A DNA stretch of 64,000 nt from a bacterium (GTDB lineage: Bacteria; Vulcanimicrobiota; Vulcanimicrobiia; Eremiobacterales; Eremiobacteraceae), in contig CADDZI010000001.1 in NCBI GenBank assembly GCA_902812405.1, forward strand, positions 1 to 64,000, in the 5' to 3' direction. How positions within the stretch are numbered: the first letter of the stretch is position 1; each line of letters begins with the position of its first letter. The notes under the pieces were generated by a model that worked only from the letters and a program-made list of their open reading frames with translations, was not told where the DNA came from and ran no database searches. Positions 1 to 13,362 of the stretch are shown here, in pieces. The position numbers and the translations under genes were made by a program.

Positions 1-28
1 TACGCGCCCGGTCGAGCAAGCCCGACCG

Positions 29-3000
29 CTACCGGCAGGAAGAGGCGTCATTGACCGACGCCATCAACGCCCGGTACCGGCTCATCAGCGCACTGAACTG
101 ACGGCCGATCGCGTTTGCCTCCTGCAGGTGCGGCGCAAGCGGCGGTCCCTGTGACAGTGCGGCATAGACATCCGTAAGCGTCTGCAGCCGCTCGCGGAGT
201 CGATCCGGCCTCCACTGATTGTCTTCCGAGTTTCGTGGATTTGACGACAAGGCAGCCTCGATGCCGCGTGCCTCAGCTAGCCGTTGCGCGAGACACGCCG
301 TGCGAGAGGCAGAGGCGCGGGCGGCGGTTGCGGCGCCGAGCGCATCCTGCAGGTGAGTCCGCTCGTCGTCCAGGTGGTTCAACGCGTCGTCGATGCCGGA
401 AAGCCAGCCGTACAAGGTCTCCAGGAATCTGCGGCGGGCGACGTAGTCGGCCTGACGCCACGGCGCGCGCGGGTCCGGCCGCACGATGACGCTGCGCGTG
501 ATCGCTGTGCCGCCGGCCTGCAGGACAGCCCGGTAGACGCCGGGCACGACGAGTGGTCCGCTTGAGGGCCCCTTGTTCCAATCGGGCGCGCTCTTCCACG
601 GTATCGGCGGGTCATCGCTGAGATCCCACGCCACACGATTGATGCCTGCGTGGTTGGTGCCGGTCAGGTGTGCGATGGCGCGGCCAGCCGCATCCTGAAC
701 AACGACGTGCGGCGCTGCCGCCAAAGGTCGCGGCAGGTAGTAGGTCAGCAGAGCGCCCGGCGGCGGGTTGGGGGCTGCAAAGTCACCTTGCGGCGCACAA
801 CACTCGCCGGCACCGACGCCGTACTGACTGCGCCACCAGCGAAAATACGTGTACGCGGGGCGTGGCGGATAGAAAGCGACGTCCTCGACATCGGTTACAG
901 CCAGGTCTTCGATCGCCGTCAGATCGTCGAGAATCCAAAACCCGCGGCCGTGGGTGGCGGCGATGAGGTCGTTGAAGACCGGCTGAATGCGCAGGTCGTA
1001 GACGGCGACGGCAGGCATCCTGAGGTTGAGGCTGCGCCAGTGCGTGCCGCCGTCAACCGTTACCCACACGCCATGTTCGCCGCCCGCGTACAGGATGGCG
1101 GGGTGATGGCGGTCCTGGCGCACGACGTGCAGCACCTCATCCGACGGCAGATCGCCCGCGAGCAGCGTCCAGTGCGCGCCAAAATCGGATGTGCCGAAGA
1201 GATACGGGTGTTGGTCTCCGGACAGATGCCGATCGACGACCGCGAAAGCCGTGCCGGCCGCAAACGGAGAAGGTTCAACCGCTTCGACCCTCCCGTAGTG
1301 CGGTGCCGGCGGCGAAACGTTGCGCCAGGTGAGGCCGCCGTCGCGCGTCAGGCGGACCAATCCGTCATCCGTTCCGACCCAGATGACCTTGGCGTCGCGC
1401 GGTGAGGGAGCGAGGTCGAGCAGCGTGTCATAGAATTCAGCGCCTGAGACGTCGGTATTGATCGGGCCGCCCGCGGCCTGCTGGTGAGCCGGATCGTTCA
1501 AGGTGAGATCCGGGCTGATCTGCACCCAGTGCCGCCCCCGGTCACGGCTTTCCCAGACAACGTTGCCCCCGTAGTACGCAACGCGCCCATCCTGCGGCGA
1601 GAACGCCACCGGCGCCTCCCAGTTGAAACGGTAGGGTAGGCCGGCCAGTGGGGCTCCATTCGTATCGCGGACGTACGGTGTCACGTCATAACTTTCGCGC
1701 GTCCGGCGGTCGTACATGGTCAGCTGCCCGTTGAGGTCGCGCACGCCGACGTTCCAGATGTAGCGCCCATCCTGCGGGTCCGGTACCGACCACGATCCGT
1801 CGCCGTCGCTGCCCACATCGGTCCAGTCGTCGTTGAGGATGCCCAGGGGGTTGAGTGAATCGCTGGGTCCGCAGTACGCGTCGTTATCTTGGAAACCGCC
1901 GCAGACGTGGTAGGGAACATCCAGGTCAAACGCGACATGGTACGCCTGCCCCAGCGTGACGTTGAATCGCCAGTCCCAGGTCTTGCCGCCATCCAGGCTG
2001 ATGGGTGCACCGCCGTCGTTGGCCTCGATCATGCGCCGTCCGTCGTCGGCAATCCACATGTCGTGATGGTCCTGGTGGACGGCATGGACGTTGTTGACAA
2101 GCGTGACGCCCCCGTCGTGCGATTCGACTAAATCCTCGGACAAAAAGAAGATGTGATTCGGGTCGTGCGGATCGACCGCCAGGCGGCTCATGTAGAAGGG
2201 ACGCTGGTCAAGGTAGGTGTCCTTGCTGACCAGATGCCAGTGATCGCCGCCGTCATCGGATCGCCACAGCAAGCCCGCCCGGGATTGGATGAGCGCATAC
2301 ACGCAGCGCGGATTGCTGGGCGCCACGGCAACCCCGATGCGTCCCATGAACCCGGCGGGCAAACCGTGGCCCGTCAGACGCTGCCAGGTGATGCCGCCGT
2401 CGCGGGAACGATACAAGCCGTCGGCGGGTCCGCCGCTGCGAAAGGTCCACGGGAGACGGCGGAACTGCCAGACGCCTGCAAAGACCAGACGGTTGGTTTG
2501 GTGATCCCAAGCAAGGTCGCTCATGCCGCTTGCCGGGCCGACGTACAGCGTTTGCCGCCACGTCTTCCCGCCGTCGGTCGTCACAAAGACTCCCCGGTCG
2601 CGACTGTCGCGGTAGGGGTCGCCGAGAGCTCCCACAAGCACGATGCCGGGATTCCGCCGGTTGATAAGGATGCGTGCGATGGCGGGCGAGCGCAGGCCGG
2701 CCGCGTGCCACGAGTGTCCGCCATCCGTGCTCACCCATACGCCGTTACCTAAGGACGCGTCGTTGCGAGGGTTGGATTCCCCTGTGCCCACCCACACGAT
2801 GCGCGGATCCGACGGTGCCACGGCGATCGCGCCGATCGAGGACGTCCCTTGGCGGGTAAAGACATCCTGCCACGTCAGGCCGCCGTCGGTTGTCCGCCAC
2901 ACGCCCCCGCCGGCTGCACCAAGGTAGTACAGGTACGGATCGCGATCGCTGCCCGCCACCGCGGCGACGCGGCCGCCGACAACAGCCGGACCGATGTTGC

Positions 3001-3157
3001 GCCACTGCAGATCGCCGAAAGACGCGGCCGCATTGGCTGCCGGCAGCTGTGCCGGGTTGCCTGCAGACCGCGTCTCCCACGGGATCACAAGCGTAAGACA
3101 CAGCAGCCCCGCGCTGACGAGCGCAGGGCCCGCTGGATGGCGGGTCTGGCTCGTCAC
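29..3157 (-). CDS. Secreted BNR/sortilin-type multi-propeller protein
   Basis: Protein of about 1,042 aa made of repeated BNR/Asp-box motifs (S/T-x-D-G-G-x-T-W, e.g. STDGGHSW, TTDGGKTW, SRDGGITW, SRDRGRHW) spread over the first 750 residues, the pattern of tandem seven-bladed propellers in VPS10/sortilin-like 'glycosyl hydrolase' proteins. The C-terminal 250 aa look like a beta-sandwich followed by a helical tail rich in Arg and Ala. No catalytic residues can be named, so the substrate is unknown. I chose the GTG at 3157 because it gives a hydrophobic signal peptide (GPALVSAGLLCLTLVIP) and removes an overlap with the upstream gene. An in-frame start at 3325 would add 56 low-complexity residues and run into the Rieske gene. 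Secreted or envelope location is inferred from the signal. Confidence 0.85.
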   Translation of the reverse strand: MTSQTRHPAGPALVSAGLLCLTLVIPWETRSAGNPAQLPAANAAASFGDLQWRNIGPAVVGGRVAAVAGSDRDPYLYYLGAAGGGVWRTTDGGLTWQDVFTRQGTSSIGAIAVAPSDPRIVWVGTGESNPRNDASLGNGVWVSTDGGHSWHAAGLRSPAIARILINRRNPGIVLVGALGDPYRDSRDRGVFVTTDGGKTWRQTLYVGPASGMSDLAWDHQTNRLVFAGVWQFRRLPWTFRSGGPADGLYRSRDGGITWQRLTGHGLPAGFMGRIGVAVAPSNPRCVYALIQSRAGLLWRSDDGGDHWHLVSKDTYLDQRPFYMSRLAVDPHDPNHIFFLSEDLVESHDGGVTLVNNVHAVHQDHHDMWIADDGRRMIEANDGGAPISLDGGKTWDWRFNVTLGQAYHVAFDLDVPYHVCGGFQDNDAYCGPSDSLNPLGILNDDWTDVGSDGDGSWSVPDPQDGRYIWNVGVRDLNGQLTMYDRRTRESYDVTPYVRDTNGAPLAGLPYRFNWEAPVAFSPQDGRVAYYGGNVVWESRDRGRHWVQISPDLTLNDPAHQQAAGGPINTDVSGAEFYDTLLDLAPSPRDAKVIWVGTDDGLVRLTRDGGLTWRNVSPPAPHYGRVEAVEPSPFAAGTAFAVVDRHLSGDQHPYLFGTSDFGAHWTLLAGDLPSDEVLHVVRQDRHHPAILYAGGEHGVWVTVDGGTHWRSLNLRMPAVAVYDLRIQPVFNDLIAATHGRGFWILDDLTAIEDLAVTDVEDVAFYPPRPAYTYFRWWRSQYGVGAGECCAPQGDFAAPNPPPGALLTYYLPRPLAAAPHVVVQDAAGRAIAHLTGTNHAGINRVAWDLSDDPPIPWKSAPDWNKGPSSGPLVVPGVYRAVLQAGGTAITRSVIVRPDPRAPWRQADYVARRRFLETLYGWLSGIDDALNHLDDERTHLQDALGAATAARASASRTACLAQRLAEARGIEAALSSNPRNSEDNQWRPDRLRERLQTLTDVYAALSQGPPLAPHLQEANAIGRQFSALMSRYRALMASVNDASSCR

Positions 3158-3227
3158 CCGCCGTTCACGTGGCGCCTGCAACGGCGGGAATGGGCATGTG
3201 CCATCATGCGCGCACGAGCCGTACCCG

Positions 3228-4340
3228 TCAGTCGTCCATGACGCTGCGGTAGTAGCGGTCAAATTGGTACAGCAAACCCTCTTGGTTGGCGTAGGGTCCC
3301 GGCGTATAGGCGCGGGAGGCGACACCTTCCTGCGAGAGTTCGCAGACGTGCCAATCCTGACGGTTGGTCATATCCCAAAAGTCCACGGCGTCGGAGGTGT
3401 CAAAGTCCGGCCGTGCCATCGTGTCGGGATGGAAGAGCCACTGACACGTGACGATCGAGCGATCGACGGCCAGCGGCTCGATGCGGTGCACCATCACGTA
3501 ATCCGGCTCTAGGCTCAGCAGCATGGTCGGGAAGATCGCATAGTAGTAGACGCGGTCGAGTTCGTCGCCCGCGACCTCGCCCAGAGGCGGGTAGTAGGCC
3601 TTGCCGCTCATGCTCATGCGCGAACCGGAAACTCGCAGCGTCATGTAGCCGCCCAGGAAGGGGCCTTCGAGCAGATCGTTACGCCCGCTGTCGTAGGGGG
3701 TCAACTTGTCCAGCGCGGGGTGGACGAGCGGGCAGTGATAGCATTCGGAGTAATTCTGGACGATGAGCTTCCAATTGCAGCGCAGGTCGTACTCGATCGT
3801 CCGTGCGACCCGCAGCTGCGCGATGTGCCAGCGGGCAAAGCGGCCCAGCAGGGGAGCGAAAGCTACCTCGAAGGGTTCCGGACGTTCGGCCAGGTTGATG
3901 AAGATGAAGCCCTCCCAGGTGGCAAGTGCGGCCTGCCGCAGGGGATACCGGGCCTTGTCAAAATCCGGCACGCCGTCCATGTTGCGGGCAGCCAGGAGAG
4001 TCCCGTCCAGGTTGTAGGTCCAGGCGTGGTACGGACACATGATGGAACCCAGAAACTTCCCGGAGGCTTGCTCACACATGCGCGTGCCGCGGTGCCGGCA
4101 GACGTTGTACAGGGCGCGCAAGCGGCCGTCCTGTCCGCGAACGATGATCAGATTGTCCCTGCCGATGGTGGTGAGAAAATACTCACCCGCGGACGCCGCC
4201 TGCTCCTCGCGGCCGACAAGCAGCCAGCGCCGCGCAAAAATGCGCTCCTGTTCCTGCTCGAAGATGTCGCGCGACGTGTAGTACGCCTGGGGCAGGGTGT
4301 GTGCTCCTCGAGGGACGCTCGTTTTGGTGAAGACCGCCAT
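3228..4340 (-). CDS. Rieske non-heme iron oxygenase, alpha-subunit type
   Basis: 370-aa aromatic-ring-hydroxylating oxygenase-like protein. The N-terminal Rieske [2Fe-2S] domain has the ligand set CRH (C81, H83) and CPYH (C102, H105). The C-terminal mononuclear-iron domain shows NYSECYHCPLVH with H202 and H207 as probable Fe ligands. Such enzymes use O2 and a reductase to hydroxylate or demethylate aromatics, amines or betaines; the substrate cannot be read here. No ferredoxin or reductase partner is adjacent. The start at 4340 has a strong GGAGG Shine-Dalgarno about 6-7 nt upstream; the longer in-frame start at 4469 lacks one and adds 43 unconserved residues. The gene is divergent from the M-box operon and may share a regulatory region with it. 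Confidence 0.93.
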   Translation of the reverse strand: MAVFTKTSVPRGAHTLPQAYYTSRDIFEQEQERIFARRWLLVGREEQAASAGEYFLTTIGRDNLIIVRGQDGRLRALYNVCRHRGTRMCEQASGKFLGSIMCPYHAWTYNLDGTLLAARNMDGVPDFDKARYPLRQAALATWEGFIFINLAERPEPFEVAFAPLLGRFARWHIAQLRVARTIEYDLRCNWKLIVQNYSECYHCPLVHPALDKLTPYDSGRNDLLEGPFLGGYMTLRVSGSRMSMSGKAYYPPLGEVAGDELDRVYYYAIFPTMLLSLEPDYVMVHRIEPLAVDRSIVTCQWLFHPDTMARPDFDTSDAVDFWDMTNRQDWHVCELSQEGVASRAYTPGPYANQEGLLYQFDRYYRSVMDD

Positions 4341-4667
4341 AGACAACCTCCGTCGTGCTTCCACGTTGTTGTTTCTGTAGGCCGCCCGGACGTGCCTGTG
4401 CGGCACGCAAGGTCGGGTTCCGAACAAAATGCGGTTGACAGGCTTGCCCGCCCGTGCGCAATCGCGCATTCATTCGAGAGCCGTGTTCATGGGAGCACGA
4501 CGGGAGATTGTCGCCGGCCGCAGCGTGGGTTCCGCCACAAGGAGTCCGTCAGTCACGCGAGCGCGAGTCCCTGCGCGTCAACGCACTTGCTCATAGCAGG
4601 GCGCGAGGCTTTGGTGTTTGACCGAGGCCGACCGGTAAAGGTACGTGAGAGAACATCAGGACGCGGG
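4341..4667. other. Gene-free divergent intergenic region
   Basis: About 330 bp between the minus-strand Rieske gene and the plus-strand M-box promoter. It should hold the Rieske promoter, but I see no convincing -35/-10 pair on the minus strand. Short reading frames here are not supported by coding-like composition or ribosome sites. Confidence 0.5.
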
Positions 4668-4697
4668 TTGACAACACGCCGGGACGCCCGGTATAAT
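4668..4697 (+). promoter_or_regulatory. Consensus sigma-70 promoter of the M-box operon
   Basis: TTGACA at 4668-4673 and TATAAT at 4692-4697 with an 18-nt spacer, both hexamers perfect. Transcription would start near 4704, just before the aptamer at 4712. This is the clearest housekeeping promoter in the window. A consensus promoter fits a gene whose control is exerted after initiation by a riboswitch. Confidence 0.93.
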
Positions 4698-4711
4698 GCA
4701 ACCGAGGATTT

Positions 4712-4868
4712 CCTCGTTAGGCGAGGCGTCTGCACAAACAAAAGCCGCTGCCCGGAAAGGTCGAGAGACCCCAATGGGCCACCAGGCACCGCCGAAATAA
4801 GGCGGTATCTAAGACGGCTAGGCTTCCGAGCCTTACGTTGTGCAGTGTCAAAGCTCGACGCATGAGGA
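4712..4868 (+). promoter_or_regulatory. M-box (ykoK leader) Mg2+ riboswitch aptamer
   Basis: The RNA carries the M-box signature blocks in order: GTTAGGCGAGGC (4716-4727), GCCGCTGCCCGG (4744-4755), GGTCGAGAGACCCCAATGGG (4759-4778), ATCTAAGACGGCTAGGC (4807-4823) and GTGCAGTGTCAAAGCTC (about 4840-4856). These match the Bacillus mgtE leader pattern (GUUAGGUGAGGC, CCAAUGGGUCA, ACAGUGCUAAAGCUC). The short P1 closing helix pairs CCTC at 4712 with GAGG near 4864. M-box RNAs bind Mg2+ and switch off Mg2+ importers. The genes downstream are a metal transporter and an outer-membrane barrel, consistent with Mg2+ import. Confidence 0.95.
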
Positions 4869-4899
4869 TCCCGGCAGATCCAAAGCCGGTGAACCCGTC

Positions 4900-4938
4900 A
4901 CCGTCGCCAGCGAGGAAAAGGCGGCGGTTCTTTATTTT
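4900..4938 (+). terminator. Riboswitch-linked intrinsic terminator
   Basis: ACCGTCGCC (4900-4908) pairs with GGCGGCGGT (4920-4928) to give a 9-bp stem with one G-U pair and an 11-nt loop, followed by the T-rich tract TCTTTATTTT (4929-4938). It lies 30-40 nt after the aptamer, where an M-box expression platform is expected. High Mg2+ should favour this hairpin and stop transcription before the structural genes. Confidence 0.85.
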
Positions 4939-5074
4939 CGGCCGCACGAAGGGGGTGATGGTGTCCGTGGACGGCAGTCATAGGTCGATTCGCTGTATCG
5001 TGCTGTGGCTTCCCGCACCCGTGGCCGGCTGCCGCGCTGCGGCGCAAGCCCGAAACCGTTAGGAGGTGTGTCCC

Positions 5075-5230
5075 ATGAAGACGTTTGTTCTCCGGGCAAT
5101 CTTGGCGCCCCGGATTGTGTCGGCCCTCTCGGCCGTTCGGTCCTTCCTTAACCCCTGCCCGCCCCCACCGAATTCGTTCGCGGCAGATAACCCCCGCATC
5201 GGGTTCCACGAGAAGCTGTTTCTCTCATAA
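5075..5230 (+). CDS. 51-codon leader ORF, possible relic N-terminus of the Nramp-like transporter
   Basis: ATG at 5075 has the best ribosome site of the operon (AGGAGG at 5061-5066) and reads 51 codons to TAA at 5228. The first 20 residues (MKTFVLRAILAPRIVSALSA) resemble the pre-TM1 start of Nramp-related Mg2+ transporters, which run as a basic stretch, then I/L-G-P-G-I/L-V, then the metal-binding TM1. The rest is proline-rich and resembles nothing. The next gene begins at TM5 of that family. My reading is that this ORF keeps the original translation start of a transporter whose TM1-4 have been deleted or lost. It could instead be a genuine short leader peptide. Confidence 0.4.
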   Translation: MKTFVLRAILAPRIVSALSAVRSFLNPCPPPPNSFAADNPRIGFHEKLFLS

Positions 5231-5250
5231 AACCGGGGGAATTTCACGCC

Positions 5251-6099
5251 ATGTCTGCACTTCACACGGCGACGCGGGAACGCGTCGCCCTCTTCGTTGC
5301 CGCCTTCAACCTGATCTTCGTGCCGATCGTGCTCATGGCCCACCCGGATTGGGTGGCTGTCGGCCGGGCGTTCATCCACCCTCCGCTGCCCGCGGACTGG
5401 CTCTCGGCGTCCTTTCTCATCCTCATATCGGCCAACATCGGGACGACAATCGCACCCTGGCAACTCTTCTTCCAGCAGTCGTGCGTGGTTGACAAGGGCC
5501 TGCTACCCAGGGATATTCCGGCCGGCCGGCGCGACTTGGTGCTGGGTGTGACCGGGATGGCCGTCGTGGCCCTGTCGATCATCATCCTGACCGGTCAATA
5601 CCTGCACGGCATTCCGGGTGCGGACAACTTCCGGATCGACCAGATCGTCGCAGCCATTGCCTCGCACGTCGGCCATCGTGCCATGCTCCTCTTCGTCCTG
5701 GGTCTGGCCGAGGCCGGGCTCATCGCGGCCATCGTGATCACGGCCAGCACGGCCTGGGCCATCGGAGAAGCGTTTGACTGGCCGCGCTCTATTAACGACC
5801 ACCCCGTGCAGGCGCTGGGGTTTTACCTCCCCAGCTTGGCGGCCACGGCGCTGGCGGGCAGCGTTGTCCTCCTGCCGAACGTCCCGCTGGGCTTTCTCAA
5901 TCTTTCGGTTCAGGTAATCGCGACGATCTTCATGCCGCCTGCGATGCTCTTTTTACTCATGCTCCTCAATGATCGCGAGCTGATGGGTCCCTACGTCAAC
6001 GGACCGTGGCGCAACGCGGTTTCCATTGTCATCCTTGCAAGCCTGATTGTGTGCAACACCTTGTACGGTCTTGCCACGCTCTTCCCCGACAAACGCTAG
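5251..6099 (+). CDS. Nramp/NRMT-like divalent metal transporter lacking TM1-4
   Basis: 282-aa polytopic membrane protein matching the C-terminal part of Nramp-family carriers. TM5 (about 12-30) is followed by the TM6 motif ANIGTTIAPWQLFFQQS (61-77), then QQS-x-VVDKGL and five more helices ending in ASLIVCNTLYGLATLF. Nramp-related Mg2+ transporters of about 400 aa carry a first repeat (TM1-5) whose TM1 supplies half of the metal site; that part is absent. In-frame sequence extends upstream only to a stop at 5188. Control by an M-box points to Mg2+ as substrate. It is followed closely by a small membrane protein whose ribosome site overlaps its stop codon. It may be a broken gene, a half-transporter, or an assembly deletion. 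Confidence 0.85.
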   Translation: MSALHTATRERVALFVAAFNLIFVPIVLMAHPDWVAVGRAFIHPPLPADWLSASFLILISANIGTTIAPWQLFFQQSCVVDKGLLPRDIPAGRRDLVLGVTGMAVVALSIIILTGQYLHGIPGADNFRIDQIVAAIASHVGHRAMLLFVLGLAEAGLIAAIVITASTAWAIGEAFDWPRSINDHPVQALGFYLPSLAATALAGSVVLLPNVPLGFLNLSVQVIATIFMPPAMLFLLMLLNDRELMGPYVNGPWRNAVSIVILASLIVCNTLYGLATLFPDKR

Positions 6100-6110
6100 G
6101 AGCCGTCATC

Positions 6111-6305
6111 ATGCAACGCCTTGACGAAGACACCGAAGACACCATCCGCCGCATTCTGGAAGACGAGGCCTGGGATCAGCCGCTTGCGCCGGTCGAGCAG
6201 ATCAGGCCTTCGGGGTGGTACACGGCTGCGCTTTGGCTCCTGCGCTTCTCTGTCGGCGTTATGCTGGCCATCGTCACCTATGCCTTTCTGCACGGTGCAC
6301 ACTAA
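6111..6305 (+). CDS. 64-aa single-pass membrane protein
   Basis: Small protein with an acidic N-terminal half (MQRLDEDTEDTIRRILEDEAWD) and one transmembrane helix near the C-terminus (ALWLLRFSVGVMLAIVTYAFL). The start at 6111 is preceded by AGGAG, which overlaps the stop codon of the transporter gene, so the two are probably translationally coupled. The downstream barrel gene overlaps its stop. I recognise no family. An accessory subunit of the Mg2+ transporter is a reasonable guess from the gene order only. Confidence 0.75.
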   Translation: MQRLDEDTEDTIRRILEDEAWDQPLAPVEQIRPSGWYTAALWLLRFSVGVMLAIVTYAFLHGAH

Positions 6306-8253
6306 AGCGGCGCGGGTGATTGCGACAGTGCTCGTCGCGGGCTTCGTCATCGTGCCGGCGCTGCGCGCACGCGCGGACACGGTGACACCATCGCCGGAGC
6401 GCGCAGCGTCGTCGCCGGCTCGCACCCACGTGGCCACCTCACCCGCTCCGGCCTCGACCGCGACGCTGGCATCCCCGTCCTGGCGGACGGCATTAGACGG
6501 TTTCGTGTCGTTTGTCGATCAAGCAACCCATGGACCCGGCACGCAGCCGCCGGAAGCGCCGGCTTTTGCAAAGGGGTCGCCGCTTTCCCCGATGACGCCC
6601 TACGACACGTTTTCCAGCGCGCCGCAAACGCCGGGAGTGGCCGGAGTCAGTCAGTTTCTCATCGACGTCGGCTACACCGGACGGCGGATCACCACGTCGT
6701 TAGACGCGAGCGTGCTCGGCGTCGATGGCAGTATCACCAACGCGGCCTATTGGACGGAGCCGCTTCTTGCGCCCTACAATCCGCACATTGGTTCCCGCCT
6801 GCTGCCGTTTTCGATCGTCTTTCCCACACATGCCGGACAGGACGACGGTGCCGTTGCGGGCGTCGCCGTCTCCCGTCTCAGCGTGCAGGCAAATGACGGC
6901 GCATGGCGGGTGCAAGCCGGTGCCTTCGACCTGGGGCAAACAATCCGCTGCGTCTTTGTGCAGCCTGCCCTGCCCAACGTCCCTCCGGCGCTTACACTTG
7001 CACCTGCAGAGAGCCTGGGAGACGGACCGCCAACTCTGGACAGTTGGCCGCAGCCGCCACCCGGTCTACCGCTGCGCGGTCTGGATGTGACGGGCACGCA
7101 GGGCAAGCTCAGCGCGGAGTTCAGCGACGGCCTACTGCCCTCTCTTCCTGGTACCAGCGCCCGTGCGGTTCAGGGGTCGCTGGCACTGCATGGCGGCGAA
7201 AGTTCCAACCTGATGTTGCAGGTTCTCCGCCTGACGACCGGCGGTGCGCTCATCGCGACGACGACGCTGTTTGGGGCCGACCCTGTGCTCGTGGACACTC
7301 CGCAAGGACGCCTTCCCGTAAGCACGCTGGGCAACCAGGTGATGACTAGCGCCGGCCTGCACGCGGACGGCAGCCTGGGCGGACGACTGAGCGGGGTGGC
7401 GGATGTGGCCCGTAGCTGGTACGAAGCGCAGCACGTGGCCGCGCCGGGCACCAGCCGGCCAGGCGGCTTCTACCACGCCGGCCTCTCCTATGCCGCGGGA
7501 AGCCTCAGCCTGGGGTTGGATGGTTATCGCTTCGAACCGCGCTACAGCACCGCCATCCTGCCCTACGGCGTGCCGGAGAACGTGTGGAGTGTCGCCTGGT
7601 CGTGGCCCGGCGTTTGGTTAAAATCCACCTATCAGCTCGCAGATAACACGATCGTAGGGGCGAACCGGCAGGGGTACCGCTTCCACGTCGACAGGGACAG
7701 CGGCCGCCTGGCGTGGCGCGCAGATGTCGCCGAGTTCCACCAGATTCAGCCGTCCGCAATTGACGAGTCGCACGATACCGGCTTCGTCGAGGGCTTCTTC
7801 CTTCCGCAGCTGCCGCGCTATGCAACCCTGGGTCTGCAAAAACAGTTCGGCGTCTGGGTTGCCTGGCGTCCACCCTTCGCGACACTAACCCTGGACGGCG
7901 TGGACGACATGATGCATCGGGATGCCGCACCGGTGCAGCCGCAGGATGCGGTGAGCTACGAAGCGCCGCAGCTGGTTATGAGCATCAGTAAGCGCATCCA
8001 GCGGCGCATTGTGGCCGCTCTGGGCGTGGGGCGCTACGCCATGCGCGGATCGTGGGCCCACGGCCCGCTGACCAACGTTGACTATCAACAGGATGTGATC
8101 TTCGGTGGCGCACAGTTGGCCGAGTCGCAACACGCCACCGTTCTTCTGGAGGTGCGCCACGGGGGCTTTGCCGGTTTGCCATCCCTGCCCGGAGGGCCGT
8201 CGCCGGACTACCACGACACGCTCGTCGTCATCGAGCAGCGCTTCCAGTACTAG
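6295..8253 (+). CDS. Outer-membrane beta-barrel protein of the M-box operon
   Basis: 652 aa beginning with a signal peptide (KAARVIATVLVAGFVIVPALRARA), a Ser/Pro/Thr-rich linker of about 70 residues, then long stretches of alternating polar and hydrophobic residues. It ends in IEQRFQY, the aromatic C-terminus expected of outer-membrane barrels. I chose the GTG at 6295, inside the end of the 64-aa gene, because it starts the signal peptide. An ATG at 6280 is also possible; the longer frame from 6121 lies over the small gene and has no signal. I do not recognise a named porin family. Its position at the end of an M-box-controlled operon suggests that it lets Mg2+ or another metal cross the outer membrane, which is inference. 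Confidence 0.85.
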   Translation: MHTKAARVIATVLVAGFVIVPALRARADTVTPSPERAASSPARTHVATSPAPASTATLASPSWRTALDGFVSFVDQATHGPGTQPPEAPAFAKGSPLSPMTPYDTFSSAPQTPGVAGVSQFLIDVGYTGRRITTSLDASVLGVDGSITNAAYWTEPLLAPYNPHIGSRLLPFSIVFPTHAGQDDGAVAGVAVSRLSVQANDGAWRVQAGAFDLGQTIRCVFVQPALPNVPPALTLAPAESLGDGPPTLDSWPQPPPGLPLRGLDVTGTQGKLSAEFSDGLLPSLPGTSARAVQGSLALHGGESSNLMLQVLRLTTGGALIATTTLFGADPVLVDTPQGRLPVSTLGNQVMTSAGLHADGSLGGRLSGVADVARSWYEAQHVAAPGTSRPGGFYHAGLSYAAGSLSLGLDGYRFEPRYSTAILPYGVPENVWSVAWSWPGVWLKSTYQLADNTIVGANRQGYRFHVDRDSGRLAWRADVAEFHQIQPSAIDESHDTGFVEGFFLPQLPRYATLGLQKQFGVWVAWRPPFATLTLDGVDDMMHRDAAPVQPQDAVSYEAPQLVMSISKRIQRRIVAALGVGRYAMRGSWAHGPLTNVDYQQDVIFGGAQLAESQHATVLLEVRHGGFAGLPSLPGGPSPDYHDTLVVIEQRFQY

Positions 8254-8457
8254 CTGTCGGCCGCAAACCGCTGGCCGGCGCCGACCCCACACGGCGGACG
8301 CATGCACGGCGACCCTGAAGTCCGTTGCGCCCAGGCATGCCTCCGGGGCAGTCTGGGGTGGTGGCGGCCGGTTCCGCCCGCGGCGGCCTGCTCGATCTCA
8401 CCTCCAAACCATGAGGGTTTTGCGCACGCGAGCGCCAAACGCAGGTAGTAGCCTTCC

Positions 8458-8780
8458 GGGATGATGGTGGAATCGGCAGACACGACAGACTTCGACCGAG
8501 GAGCCGAAGGCCGGGAAACCGCCTTCGGGATGCGCTCAAAGTCGGCGGACTCTCGCCACGCGGGCGTGACAACGCCGAGCCAAGCCCGTACGCGGCGCAC
8601 CGTGTGTCTGTGGCGTGCGGGAAGGTGTAGAGACTGGACGGGCGCGGCCTACCTCGCACCTGCGGGTGTGACACGGCCAAGGCACAGTCCGGACCACAAA
8701 CGGCAACGGTGGTGAAAACCATAGTGGTGCGAAAATCTGTTGCCCGCAAGGGCGTCCGGGTTCGAATCCCGGTCATCCCA
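8458..8780 (+). tRNA. tRNA-Leu(UAA) split by a group I intron
   Basis: Exon 1 (8458-8492) begins GGGATGATGGTGGAATCGGC; exon 2 runs 8732-8780. Joined, they form a complete type II tRNA. The acceptor pairs GGGATGA with TCATCCC, the anticodon arm is ACAGA-CTTAAAA-TCTGT with anticodon TAA, the long variable arm is TGCCCGCAAGGGCG, and the T arm is CCGGGTTCGAATCCCGG. Discriminator A is at 8780, and CCA is not encoded. Without removal of the 239-nt insert the anticodon is interrupted after U34. Confidence 0.95.
8493..8731 (+). ncRNA. Self-splicing group I intron (tRNA-Leu type, IC3-like)
   Basis: 239-nt intron inserted after U34 of the anticodon, the site used in cyanobacterial and plastid tRNA-Leu(UAA). 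The 5' exon ends in U and can form a U-G pair with an internal guide (GAG in the first 16 nt); the intron ends in G at 8731. Conserved core blocks are present in order: GGGATGCGCTCAAAGTC (8528-8544), GACAACGCCGAGCCAAGCC (8568-8586), GGAAGGTGTAGAGACT (8620-8635) and AGTCCGGACCACAAA (8686-8700). They align block for block with the Anabaena tRNA-Leu intron as I remember it. No homing endonuclease is encoded. Confidence 0.93.
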
Positions 8781-8931
8781 AGGAAAAACGTCCCGCACAA
8801 GACGCGTTGTTCCCCTCGGCGTAGAGTGGCGCCGCCGCATACCCAGCGTCGAGCGATCGGGCGGATGTTTGGGGGCCGGGGAGGTGATAGGTTCAAACGT
8901 GACGACCGTATCAAAACCGGGAGGTCGTAGA

Positions 8932-9150
8932 ATGCGCTTGCTTGTCTCCGGGTTGGGAGCCGGTGTCATGAGCCTCGGGCTGGCGATCCTCGCGTTGCAA
9001 GCCGTCGCTGGGGTGGGGAACTTCGACACCCAGATGGTGTCCGCCATGCACCATATGCAGGCACAGATGACCCAGGCACCCATAGCGGTCCTGGACACGG
9101 GACCAATCACCCCTGGCAGTCCGCGGGTCATCCAGGAAGTCCAACAATGA
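8932..9150 (+). CDS. 72-aa secreted or membrane-anchored small protein
   Basis: ATG at 8932 with GGGAGG upstream. Residues 1-26 form a hydrophobic signal or anchor (MRLLVSGLGAGVMSLGLAIL) followed by a short Met/Gln-rich segment (QMVSAMHHMQAQMTQ) and a polar tail. No family is recognised. The Met- and His-containing segment could bind a metal, but that is speculation. It lies 150 nt after tRNA-Leu and just before an acyltransferase gene. Confidence 0.6.
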   Translation: MRLLVSGLGAGVMSLGLAILALQAVAGVGNFDTQMVSAMHHMQAQMTQAPIAVLDTGPITPGSPRVIQEVQQ

Positions 9151-9208
9151 CCGCTTCGAGGTGGGCCATCCCAGGCTTCGGGGACAAGCCGCGGCCGGCG
9201 GAGCCGGC

Positions 9209-9787
9209 GTGCTAGGCGGGATCTCCCGGCACCTGCGCCTGTGGAGCCGGGCCTGGCGGCGCTGCCTCAGGGACGCGTACGAACAAGAAGCTTTGCGCGA
9301 GCGGTTTTCCGGCGTCTCCTTCGGGCGCGGTGTTGTGATCCGGCACGCCGAGCGCTTCTATCCCGGCCACCACGTCATTCTCCATGACCTCGTGTACCTC
9401 AACTGCGCGGGCAGCGCGTGGAACAATTATCAGGGTTTCATACGAATCGGGGATTACTCCGAGCTGGCTCCGTTTGTAGCCGTGTGGGGTGCGGGGGAAG
9501 TGACGATCGGGGTCAACGTCCACATTGGCGACTGCACGACGATCACCGCGCACGCCTCGCAACCCGTCGCGGCGCAGCACGAGGATCCGGCGCGACCACT
9601 CGACTTCCGCTTCGGCGGCGTCGTCATCGAAGACCACGTCATCATCGGCTCGCACGTGACGATTTTGCCTGGCGTGCGCATCGGACGGCATGCGATGATC
9701 GGTGCGGGTTCGGTGGTGACAGCCGACGTTGCCGCCTCCACCCTCGTTGCAGGCGCCCCAGCGCGGTTGATTCGAGAACTCTCGTAG
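9209..9787 (+). CDS. Hexapeptide-repeat (left-handed beta-helix) acyltransferase
   Basis: About 192 aa. The C-terminal 120 residues carry isoleucine-rich hexapeptide repeats (IRIGDYSELAPFVAVW, VTIGVNVHIGDC, VVIEDHVIIGSHVTILPG, VRIGRHAMIGAGSVV) ending in VAGAPARLI, typical of WbbJ/CysE/maltose-acetyltransferase-like O-acetyltransferases that modify sugars with acetyl-CoA. The His of ITAHAS is a plausible catalytic base. GTG at 9209 has GGCGGAG 5 nt upstream; a GTG at 9161 would add 16 residues with no ribosome site. It may modify an envelope polysaccharide, but no sugar-pathway neighbours support that. Confidence 0.85.
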   Translation: MLGGISRHLRLWSRAWRRCLRDAYEQEALRERFSGVSFGRGVVIRHAERFYPGHHVILHDLVYLNCAGSAWNNYQGFIRIGDYSELAPFVAVWGAGEVTIGVNVHIGDCTTITAHASQPVAAQHEDPARPLDFRFGGVVIEDHVIIGSHVTILPGVRIGRHAMIGAGSVVTADVAASTLVAGAPARLIRELS

Positions 9788-9821
9788 GTGGTTACCGTGC
9801 GCGCAGGACGGCGCAAAAAGG

Positions 9822-9851
9822 CCGGGTTGCGCAGCCTGCTGCGCAACCCGG
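9822..9851. terminator. Bidirectional stem-loop between convergent genes
   Basis: Perfect inverted repeat CCGGGTTGCGCAG / CTGCGCAACCCGG (13 bp) with a CCTG loop, placed between the convergent acyltransferase and PQQ dehydrogenase genes. An A-run (CAAAAAGG) lies on its left, so the minus-strand transcript would have a short U-run after the hairpin. It therefore best fits termination of the dehydrogenase transcript, and possibly both. Confidence 0.75.
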
Positions 9852-9923
9852 TAGAGGGTATGATCTGCGGGCCGGCGGCTGCGCCGCGCCTAGGACGCCG
9901 CCGCCCAGCCACGCTGCGGTCGT

Positions 9924-11609
9924 CTACTTCGCCGGCAAGGCGAAGACGTAGAGGCCGTCCCCGTACTTCGTGTGGATCTGGAAGCTGCCGCCGGCGGCCA
10001 CGGCGACGTACTGACGGCCGCTCAGCTCGTAGGTCATGGGAGCCGCGTTGACGCCCGCGTTCGTCTTGTACTGCCACAGCAACTTGCCGGTCTTGGAATC
10101 GAACGCGTCAAAGTTGCCGTTGCTCTCACCGACGAAAGTCACCCCGCCGGCCGTCGAGGCTGGGCCGCCGATCATCGGATAGTCCACCTTGTGGGTCCAG
10201 GCTATTTTCCCCGTATCCACGTTGATGGCGACGACCGAGCCGTCTTGCTTGGCGCCGGGCGCCAGCTGGAACGCACTCCCCAGCCACAGCGTCCCCTTCT
10301 GGTATGGAGCCGGGTGGGTGGAGTAGTTCATGGGCTGATTGAGAGTCGCGATGTACACGTAGTGCAGGTTCGGATCGTAGGACACCGGCGACCATTCATC
10401 GCCGCCATTGGCGCCCGGCAGCATGTACGTGCCCTTCGCCGTCGGGAGGGCAAACATGTTCTCTTGGGGATCGAAGGCCTCGGAGACGCGGATTTGTTTT
10501 CCGGTTGCGCGATCGAGGACGTAGAACCAGGCGGTCTTGCCTGCTTCGCCGACCGCAGGTACGGTGGCACCGTTCACCGTCGTATCGAAGAGCACGGGCG
10601 GTGCGACCGCGTCCAAGTCCCACACGTCGTGCGGGATTTCCTGATAGGCCCACTTCATCTGACCCGTGTTGACGTCCAGGGCGATGATGCTGTCGGTCCA
10701 GCGGTTGTCACCCGGCCGCTTGCTGCCATCGAGGTCGGGCGACGGGTTGCCGGTCGAGACAAAGAGCGTGCCGGTCGAGGTATCCAGCGCCGGGGTCATC
10801 CAGACCTCGCCGCCGCCGTGCTGCCAGGCGTCGGCATACTGTTTGGCGACCCGTTTCTCAGCGGCAATGTCGCGGTGGAGGTTGGCACCGTTCGGAGTCG
10901 TCGCGCTGAATGCGCCTTCCCACCCGGGTCCGACCGTATAGAAACGCCAGACCTGCTTGCCGGTGGCCGCATCGTACGCCGTGACCGAGCCGCGAATTCC
11001 GAACTCGCCTCCCGCACCGCCGACGATGACCATGTTGTTGTACACAAGCGGTGCCATCGTCAGGCTGTAGCCGGCCTTGTTGTCGCCGGCTTGCACCGTC
11101 CAGGCCACCTTGCCGTTGGACGCGTGAAGCGCGACCAGCTTGCCGTCGAGTTGGCCCAGGTACAACATGCCGTTGGCGTAGGCGACGCCCCGGTTGACGT
11201 TACCGCAGCAGAAAATCGTGGTTCCCAGCGTCGGATCGTAGCGCCACAACATCTTCCCGGTGCGGGCGTCAAGCGCAAACACGTGGTCGTTGGCGGTTGT
11301 GATGTACATGGTCGTTCCGACGACAATCGGCGTCGTCTCAAATGCCGCCACGATGCCGGTATGGAACACCCAGGCGGGTTTCAATTGGTGGACGTTGGTG
11401 GTTGTAATTTGCGTCAGGGGCGAATATCGCGTATTGCCATAATCGTGCCCGTACATCGACCAGTCTGCCGATGGGGCAGCCGGCATGGCTGCCTGCGTGG
11501 CGGAGGACGTGGTGGCCGTGCCCGTCCCGGGCCCTTGTTGGGATGAACAACCGGCGATGCCGACGAGCAGGAACGCCAAAAGCCAGGCTCTACCCTTTCT
11601 CAAACTCAT
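9924..11609 (-). CDS. PQQ-dependent dehydrogenase, lipoprotein, single domain
   Basis: 561-aa quinoprotein with an eight-bladed propeller (repeated A-x-D-x-x-T-G-K-x-x-W). A lipobox (LVGIAGC, C21) predicts lipidation. Hallmarks of quinoprotein alcohol dehydrogenases are present: the vicinal disulfide C134-C135 in FCCGNVNRG, E202, N288 (STGNP) and D331 in HDVWDLD. D333, two residues after the catalytic Asp, is the position occupied by Asp in lanthanide-dependent XoxF/ExaF enzymes, although membrane glucose dehydrogenase also has D-x-D. There is no CxxCH, so no cytochrome c domain. Such enzymes oxidise alcohols or sugars in the periplasm and pass electrons to cytochromes. No pqq or moxJ/G genes are nearby. 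The start at 11609 has GGAGG at the right distance. Confidence 0.92.
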   Translation of the reverse strand: MSLRKGRAWLLAFLLVGIAGCSSQQGPGTGTATTSSATQAAMPAAPSADWSMYGHDYGNTRYSPLTQITTTNVHQLKPAWVFHTGIVAAFETTPIVVGTTMYITTANDHVFALDARTGKMLWRYDPTLGTTIFCCGNVNRGVAYANGMLYLGQLDGKLVALHASNGKVAWTVQAGDNKAGYSLTMAPLVYNNMVIVGGAGGEFGIRGSVTAYDAATGKQVWRFYTVGPGWEGAFSATTPNGANLHRDIAAEKRVAKQYADAWQHGGGEVWMTPALDTSTGTLFVSTGNPSPDLDGSKRPGDNRWTDSIIALDVNTGQMKWAYQEIPHDVWDLDAVAPPVLFDTTVNGATVPAVGEAGKTAWFYVLDRATGKQIRVSEAFDPQENMFALPTAKGTYMLPGANGGDEWSPVSYDPNLHYVYIATLNQPMNYSTHPAPYQKGTLWLGSAFQLAPGAKQDGSVVAINVDTGKIAWTHKVDYPMIGGPASTAGGVTFVGESNGNFDAFDSKTGKLLWQYKTNAGVNAAPMTYELSGRQYVAVAAGGSFQIHTKYGDGLYVFALPAK

Positions 11610-11665
11610 ATATCTCCTCCATCTCCCAAGGCGCGTCGTCGGGACGCAACAACGACGAGGGGGAT

Positions 11666-11681
11666 AACTCGAAGACGAGTT
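11666..11681. promoter_or_regulatory. Inverted repeat in a divergent promoter region
   Basis: AACTCG-AAGA-CGAGTT lies between the PQQ dehydrogenase (minus) and the cysteine-rich secreted protein (plus). It could be an operator for one or both genes. No consensus -35/-10 pair is evident around it. Confidence 0.25.
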
Positions 11682-11823
11682 TGCCGCCGTTTGAGGTTTG
11701 GCCTGTGCCGCCGGGGAGAAGGGGAGAAAACGTAAGCCAAGGACCGGGAAGTCCGTGGTGTGCGTGGCTTCTAGGGGGCTGGTCGGGGCGGGAATGGCGG
11801 GCAGAGCCCCGTAGTGGGGAGCG

Positions 11824-13362
11824 ATGCATCCATGGCTACGGTTGGCGGGGTGCGTTACGGGTGCACTTGCGGCCTTGGCTTGTGCCGGATGGCTTGAACC
11901 CAGCTCGGCCGCGGCCGTCCCTGGGCAGGTCGAACAAGCGTGGTCCAGGGCTGACTCGGACCCGGCGATTGTGGGTCTGATCCGCCTTTACTATCGTTCA
12001 GGATACTGGTTGGAATGTTCAGCACGGTGTTCGGCCACGGACCGTGACTGGGGCGCCGACGCTCTGACTGCCACGCTCTTTTTTGCCTGGCGTCTGGGTG
12101 ACGCTGCCGTCGTACCCTACCTGCGGGCTCTTGCGGCAGATGCACCGCGATACCAACCATGTCGTGTCTCCGAGACCTGCCGGCTGTGGAGCGATACCCC
12201 CTCCTGGGATGTCGTTGCCGCAGCCGAGGAGTACAAGGCGACGGACGATCCGGCGGATCTCGCAAAGGCCATCGCAAACTACGAGGCCGTCGTGCGCTCG
12301 CCGGTCTTCGGCGGCGGCGCCTGTCGGGAGATTCTCTACCAGCGTCCCGGAGGCGGGCACACATCGATCAAGACATTGGAAACCGCCTCAAACCTCGTCA
12401 AAGCCGGCCTCCTGCTCTATCGGGCGACCGGGGCGGTGCAGTACCTTGCGCAGGCTCGCAGCACGTATCGCGCCATCCGACGTTTGTTCTTCGATCCGCG
12501 CGCCGGTCTCTATACAAATTACATCGTCGACAATGGGCGCCGCTGCCGCCAACTTGAGCGCCGTTTCTTTGCGTCCACCAACGGCCTCATGATAGAAGAC
12601 GGTCTTCTTCTCGCGCGCGCGACCGGTGAGCGCCGATATGCGCGCCAAGCGCTGCAGACCGCCCAGGCAATCGAGCGTTACTTGAGCGATCCAGCCGGCA
12701 TCTACGAAAACCTCCAGGCCGAGAATGACATTGCCGAACCCCTCGTGGAGGCGATGGCCGATGAGGCGGCAAGAGGCGCGGGCTTTGCGCGCCGCTGGAT
12801 TCTGCGCAACGCCCGGGCCGCGGCCTCGGCCTGCTCGGCATCGTATCTGTGTGACCGATTCTTCGGCGGCCCGCCCCCGCTGCCCGGCGCCCGCGTCACC
12901 GCATGGCAGACCAATGGCGCCCTGGCTTTATTCGTCGCAGCCCGATCCCTGGGCGCGGGCATTCAACCCGGTGCTGGCGGCTGGCATGCCCACCGCTTCG
13001 TGCCGCGCTCGGTGCGCGGCGTGCCGCTGCGGCTGCGCTTTACTGGGTCGGGCGTCGCGCTCATCGGGACGCTGGGGGAACGCTGCTGTCAGTATGGACA
13101 CGCCCGCGTGGTGGTCGACGGTAGTCCGACCTTCGACGAGACCGGGATCTGGCAGAACAAATCGGCGTGCCGGTGTCGCCTGCCCTACTCCGTGCTGTTC
13201 GCGTGGACCTGGCCGCGCGTCGGACGTCACGAAGTGGACGTCGTGGCGGCGGACGACAACCCCGAGGAGGGAGGAACCTTCTTTCACCTGCGGGCGTACG
13301 AGGTACGGTTGGATCGCCGTCCGGTGTGGGCTGCGCCTCCGGCCTTACGTGACCGTATATAA
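11824..13362 (+). CDS. Secreted cysteine-rich (alpha/alpha)6-barrel protein, GH76-like
   Basis: 512 aa with an N-terminal hydrophobic signal (GALAALACAGWLEPSSAAA). Residues 40-380 resemble the helical (alpha/alpha)6 barrel of family-76 glycoside hydrolases and related mannanases (LETASNLVKAGLLLYRATG, STNGLMIEDGLLLARATG, NDIAEPLVEA), which act on alpha-1,6-mannan or glycans. The paired catalytic Asp-Asp of GH76 is not evident, so activity is uncertain. The last 120 residues look like a beta-sandwich, possibly carbohydrate binding. About sixteen cysteines, many in close pairs, suggest disulfides formed outside the cytoplasm. It overlaps the end of the convergent Tat protein gene by 18 nt. Confidence 0.75.
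   Translation: MHPWLRLAGCVTGALAALACAGWLEPSSAAAVPGQVEQAWSRADSDPAIVGLIRLYYRSGYWLECSARCSATDRDWGADALTATLFFAWRLGDAAVVPYLRALAADAPRYQPCRVSETCRLWSDTPSWDVVAAAEEYKATDDPADLAKAIANYEAVVRSPVFGGGACREILYQRPGGGHTSIKTLETASNLVKAGLLLYRATGAVQYLAQARSTYRAIRRLFFDPRAGLYTNYIVDNGRRCRQLERRFFASTNGLMIEDGLLLARATGERRYARQALQTAQAIERYLSDPAGIYENLQAENDIAEPLVEAMADEAARGAGFARRWILRNARAAASACSASYLCDRFFGGPPPLPGARVTAWQTNGALALFVAARSLGAGIQPGAGGWHAHRFVPRSVRGVPLRLRFTGSGVALIGTLGERCCQYGHARVVVDGSPTFDETGIWQNKSACRCRLPYSVLFAWTWPRVGRHEVDVVAADDNPEEGGTFFHLRAYEVRLDRRPVWAAPPALRDRI

Follow-up and report, generated by a model that had tools for sequence, protein, structure and literature searches.

An M-box-linked family of predicted outer-membrane barrels in Candidatus Eremiobacterota

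We analysed a 64,000-nucleotide stretch of DNA (the window: positions 1 to 64,000 of the forward strand of contig CADDZI010000001.1, GenBank assembly GCA_902812405.1) from an uncultured soil bacterium of Candidatus Eremiobacterota (WPS-2, Vulcanimicrobiota), whose 2.3 Mb genome is 97% complete. Positions 4668-8253 hold, all on the plus strand, a promoter, an M-box Mg2+ riboswitch and a terminator, followed by a short open reading frame (ORF), a 5'-truncated NRMT/Nramp transporter gene, a gene for a 64-residue single-pass protein and a gene for a 652-residue protein that is predicted to form an outer-membrane beta-barrel. Comparison with related genomes indicates that the M-box and the barrel are kept side by side much more often than chance would allow.

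The leader and its short ORF

The leader begins with a sigma-70 promoter (4668-4697), TTGACA-18 nt-TATAAT, which matches the consensus at 12 of 12 positions (mean in shuffles, 0.2). It is followed by an M-box aptamer (ykoK leader, RF00380; 4706-4873), which cmscan detects over the full length of the model (1-169) with 132.8 bits and an E-value of 1.2e-29, against an Rfam gathering score of 44. The intrinsic terminator at 4900-4939 consists of a hairpin (4900-4928; stem ACCGTCGCC / GGCGGCGGT, -15.4 kcal/mol) and a U-rich tail (4929-4939). A consensus terminator scan overlooked it owing to its 11-nt loop, and it was recovered by folding. All three elements had been named in a preliminary description of the stretch, and each held up; almost every related M-box locus has an equivalent terminator shortly past its aptamer, with a hairpin and U-rich tail at 47 of the 48 loci surveyed, nearly always within 75 nt.

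The aptamer could control this terminator through a competing pairing. The leader's minimum-energy fold (z -4.2) joins the terminator loop AGCGAGGAAA to the 5' strand of the aptamer, UUUCCUCGUU, and duplex folding of related loci gives pairing of the same type (-19.8 vs -15.6 kcal/mol when shuffled). This alternative pairing is a plausible antiterminator. Because hairpins with U-rich tails recur and the complementarity between aptamer strand and terminator loop is kept, the leader is likely a transcriptional OFF switch.

The first gene after the switch, a short ORF (5075-5230) starting 201 nt downstream of the aptamer, was overlooked in the preliminary description. It encodes 51 residues (MKTFVLRAILAP...EKLFLS) behind a strong Shine-Dalgarno sequence, TTAGGAGG. 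About 30 related M-box leaders carry a short ORF preceded by a Shine-Dalgarno sequence at a similar place, mostly 150-225 nt past the aptamer; those of the long leaders (L067, L092, L063, L064, L085, L106-L109, L114, L117, L125 and L126) encode 34-66 residues. Such an ORF is missing from M-boxes that precede MgtE-domain-like genes or lie directly before some NRMTs. The window's ORF has the motif LNPCPPP in common with L085 and ends, like those of L067, L092, L063 and L064, in LFL[SGR]. Across the related leaders, one group, the best sampled, follows the pattern MKK[IV]L..LL...HDDxLRANQ...FSYWRALVS, and others end in WILHAR, LYLWVPHIR or [DE][RK]LFL[RS]. Pairs within the best-sampled group show a ratio of nonsynonymous to synonymous divergence (dN/dS) of ~0.10-0.35, so this group is translated and constrained; the case for the window's own ORF rests on its position, its Shine-Dalgarno sequence and the short shared motifs. 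The product is perhaps a small membrane-associated regulator.

The barrel family and its M-box neighbours

The barrel gene (6295-8253) starts with GTG, overlaps the 64-residue gene by 11 nt and encodes a protein whose signal peptide, HTKAARVIATVLVAGFVIVPALRARA, and RARA cleavage motif were recognized by inspection only. In the AlphaFold2 model (predicted local distance difference test score 81.3, predicted template modelling score 0.81), a low-confidence linker after the signal peptide leads into a mostly confident antiparallel barrel of ~22-23 strands, the last of which spans residues 639-651. The protein thus combines the predicted signal peptide, antiparallel barrel and C-terminal strand of an outer-membrane beta-barrel, the kind of protein that the preliminary description had proposed for this overlapping frame. 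The setting is consistent with such a protein: the genome contains an Omp85 (BamA family) gene, and the phylum has been described as diderm, with lipopolysaccharide (LPS) and BamA genes (PMC6664022).

Homologs of the barrel occur in 64 of 149 genomes of the phylum, and nearly all those with named records come from metagenome-assembled genomes of Candidatus Eremiobacterota. Two barrel loci bear other titles, Rhodospirillales (L102) and Acidobacteriaceae (L116), yet both fall within the Eremiobacterota barrels in the tree, and their contigs are probably mis-binned or mislabelled. The family appears to be undescribed. None of 36 members has a Pfam match, searches of NCBIfam and of PDB sequences with the window's barrel returned no match, and Foldseek matched the model to generic outer-membrane barrels only (query TM-score up to 0.43), which allows no family assignment. 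We also considered a TonB-dependent receptor and rejected it, as the model contains no plug-like domain and the 36 members gave no Pfam match. Net charge is negative in all homologs (-4 to -26), and the conserved columns include 19 acidic and 7 basic positions, as expected for a cation-preferring pore. We take the barrel to be, most likely, an outer-membrane channel permeable to cations, through which more Mg2+ would enter the periplasm.

The association with the M-box was assessed at 52 barrel loci with usable upstream sequence. A same-strand M-box lies within 5 kb upstream at 28 of them, against ~0.04 expected, and within 1 kb at 18. Gene order varies. Besides M-box>barrel, we observed M-box>barrel>NRMT with touching frames (L104, L106-L109, L114 and L126), M-box>NRMT>barrel (L090, L098, L102, L103 and L115) and M-box>two NRMTs>barrel (L120); a full-length NRMT stands in the same run as the barrel, before or after it, at 13 named loci. 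Since the NRMT may precede the barrel, follow it or be nowhere near, the barrel is the steadier partner of the M-box. M-box-linked copies are found throughout the barrel tree, which argues against a single recent event. At least seven changes of the M-box label (gains or losses) are needed on this tree, so that the link appears to have been repeatedly kept, lost or gained.

The truncated transporter gene and the 64-residue protein

The ORF at 5251-6099 encodes 282 residues that correspond to about transmembrane helices (TM) 5-11 of an NRMT/Nramp transporter (PF01566 positions 120-356 of 357, E-value 2.4e-41). Its only PDB sequence match is the 438-residue EleNRMT (PDB: 7qia, residues 172-408, E-value 8e-29), with which it has the GTTIAPW motif of TM6 in common. 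Unlike EleNRMT, it begins at about residue 172 and is missing TM1-4, so that some 170 N-terminal residues, including the TM1 metal site, are gone. What remains is the C-terminal two thirds of an Nramp protein. TM1 contributes one half of the Nramp metal site, and the ORF, which matches these two thirds only, therefore lacks that half and with it the complete SLC11 core, in which TM1 and TM6 both carry the site. The whole inner-membrane transporter of the preliminary description is accordingly not present at this position.

With full-length paralogs as queries, no trace of the missing part was found in any frame of window positions 1-12000, and a Pfam model search of the whole genome revealed no separate N-terminal half. 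Among the matches listed from 61 genomes, almost all others have an open frame of more than 370 codons. The nearest relative, in genome G001 (L067; 76% identity), is also cut, ~155 residues further in, and begins directly behind the stop of that genome's short ORF. Between the two fragments dN is 0.17 and dS 1.51 (dN/dS 0.11 over 68 codons), which implies either that the 5' loss is recent or that part of the protein is still in use. If the remnant (TM5-TM11) functioned as a half-protein together with the 64-residue protein and the barrel, this would account for the intact 282-codon frame, its fair ribosome-binding site and the purifying selection that has acted during most of the divergence from G001. 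We regard this as quite improbable: the ORF has lost its TM1 share of the metal site along with most of the first inverted repeat, the genome offers no N-terminal half to complement it, the only close relative is shorter still and looks like decay, and a low dN/dS is also expected after recent loss. The window copy is probably inactive, although an assembly deletion may be the source of the gap. The same genome contains three full-length Nramp-family genes, on contigs C52, C3 and C9, of which the C52 gene has an M-box of its own. A C-terminal Nramp scrap on contig C2 (77148-77354; L038 1501-1707) is apparently a pseudogene.

The 64-residue protein (6111-6305), whose gene lies 12 nt past the NRMT stop, contains one hydrophobic helix, in agreement with the preliminary description. 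We built a hidden Markov model (HMM) from the small proteins encoded directly downstream of C9-type NRMT genes. Such a single-pass protein comes next in all nine distinct loci examined, mostly with a 4-nt overlap, and was noted at L002, L005-L010, L106 and L114 (minus strand). Among 1092 ORFs of the window, the 64-residue ORF is the sole significant match of this model (E-value 1.4e-6); the matching helix, ALWLLRFSVGVMLAIVTYAFL, fits the pattern LRIYVxxAVxLVVYAF. In an NRMT subfamily of ~550 residues (L012-type), this helix is instead part of the transporter as a C-terminal fusion, and the HMM also matches several of these fusion proteins. We thus favour reading the 64-residue protein as an NRMT subunit. 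It had been proposed as a coupling subunit; because its relatives also accompany NRMT genes that lack both M-box and barrel, and are elsewhere fused to the NRMT C-terminus, nothing links it to the barrel in this role. At L012, an extra single-pass ORF of 42 residues, MQRDWTRALLWIAAIYLLVIIVGFIFIWLHVFQLPQPLRPTR, lies between the 550-residue NRMT and the barrel (~2609-2737).

A proposed route for Mg2+ across two membranes

Given the conserved pairing of M-box and barrel, and the full-length NRMTs wherever these share a run with the barrel, a two-membrane Mg2+ regulon is our best reading. We propose, with a probability of a little under 0.6, that the locus is one member of an Eremiobacterota M-box regulon that places an outer-membrane barrel under Mg2+ control, that the barrel is likely a cation channel and that the inner step is likely served by the C52 NRMT. 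At high Mg2+, the 5' strand would stay within the aptamer, the terminator (4900-4939) would fold and transcription would end. At low Mg2+, UUUCCUCGUU would instead pair with the terminator loop AGCGAGGAAA, and RNA polymerase would read on through the short ORF, the NRMT remnant, the small subunit gene and the barrel gene. The barrel would increase cation entry across the outer membrane into the periplasm, from where the regulon's NRMT importers would carry Mg2+ across the inner membrane. Since the window NRMT is without TM1-4, we assign this last step most likely to the full-length NRMT under the genome's second M-box (C52), and possibly also to the intact C9 NRMT with its small subunit. Here the promoter, aptamer, terminator, gene order, truncation and conservation are read from the sequence, and we infer the direction of the switch, the extent of the transcript, channel activity and Mg2+ as the substrate.

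The preliminary description had likewise proposed two-membrane Mg2+ uptake from this operon. Its outer-membrane half is supported by the conserved M-box and barrel and the full-length NRMTs of shared runs elsewhere, whereas its inner-membrane half probably fails at this locus with the truncation. It had also looked to conserved synteny of M-box, NRMT, small protein and barrel; the barrel and the small protein are both conserved beside NRMTs, but mostly in separate loci.

Several points weigh against the reading. Ordinary porins usually pass Mg2+, making a dedicated channel unnecessary. The aptamer 5' strand and the terminator loop show no covariation across related loci, and swapped partners pair almost as well as native ones (-19.3 vs -19.8 kcal/mol). 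No relative of the barrel, the Foldseek matches being generic, allows its substrate to be read. Furthermore, no M-box was found at 24 of the 52 barrel loci, and the M-box-free barrels that we inspected (L097, L110, L112, L113, L118, L122 and L095) have mixed neighbours, mostly without Mg2+ genes; the barrel is therefore not strictly a Mg2+ gene, and these homologs may have another role or be constitutive.

The M-box-free loci would also suit a barrel that admits some other nutrient, or many solutes in the manner of a general porin, and that rides on an M-box operon, with Mg2+ control being incidental. This is rather unlikely, as M-box-linked copies are spread over the barrel tree, in 18 loci no other large gene separates the barrel from the switch, and the link persists where no NRMT intervenes. 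A further possibility concerns envelope repair: scarce Mg2+ weakens LPS bridging, and the M-box might turn on a barrel that stabilizes or remodels the outer membrane. OprH of Pseudomonas aeruginosa, which is under PhoPQ, is the model for such a protein. Induction at low Mg2+ would by itself fit repair as well as uptake, many barrel genes stand without a Mg2+ transporter gene next to them, and no Foldseek match is a relative of known substrate. The predicted barrel is large, however, unlike the small OprH type, is acidic and often shares a run with NRMT importers, so we consider repair unlikely. More broadly, and somewhat short of even odds, the Mg2+ regulon could be stated as a channel family specific to Eremiobacterota that is M-box-controlled and, with NRMT importers, forms a two-membrane uptake regulon, in which the first gene would encode a new small protein, conserved and produced only with the switch on.

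How Mg2+ passes the outer membrane of diderms under limitation has been little studied, since general porins are assumed to be sufficient. The conserved M-box that precedes outer-membrane barrel genes across Eremiobacterota makes this family a specific, testable candidate for such a dedicated route. Cobalamin riboswitches control btuB, whose product is a TonB-dependent receptor with a plug and a vitamin ligand; the window likewise places a riboswitch over an outer-membrane protein, but one without a plug or a Pfam match.

In our literature search, no paper tied an M-box to a beta-barrel or described a Gram-negative M-box with an outer-membrane protein. The preliminary statement that no diderm case was described is nevertheless too strong. 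The pe20-ppe31 operon of Mycobacterium tuberculosis is under M-box control, and its products reportedly form a channel for Mg2+ uptake in the outer membrane (PMC12810186, PMC12209268); the first gene under this switch is a conserved small ORF (PMC12810186). As a conceptual precedent, this arrangement has an M-box over an outer-membrane channel (predicted in our case) and a small ORF first after the aptamer; the Eremiobacterota locus would parallel it in an unrelated envelope. The two differ in that M. tuberculosis has PE/PPE proteins in a mycomembrane and Rho-dependent plus translational control, whereas the window has a beta-barrel with signal peptide in an LPS/BamA phylum and an intrinsic terminator. 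Their small ORFs have no evident sequence relation. M-boxes before NRMTs are known as well. In Clostridium acetobutylicum, an M-box with an intrinsic terminator precedes the Nramp-related Mg2+ transporter gene nrmT (Shin et al. 2014, PMC4072509), as it does the Nramp-related gene here; there, however, the transporter is full length, no outer-membrane gene is present and the companion is an MgtE-domain protein rather than a single-pass helix or barrel. What is new here is the undescribed barrel family, together with two small-protein families (the NRMT subunit and the M-box-leader ORF) for which we found no description. At L073, L074, L076 and L079-L081, short-leader M-boxes precede a gene whose product starts with MAFQDGFISELVGR or a close variant and may be the MgtE-domain companion of NRMT described for C. 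acetobutylicum (PMC4072509).

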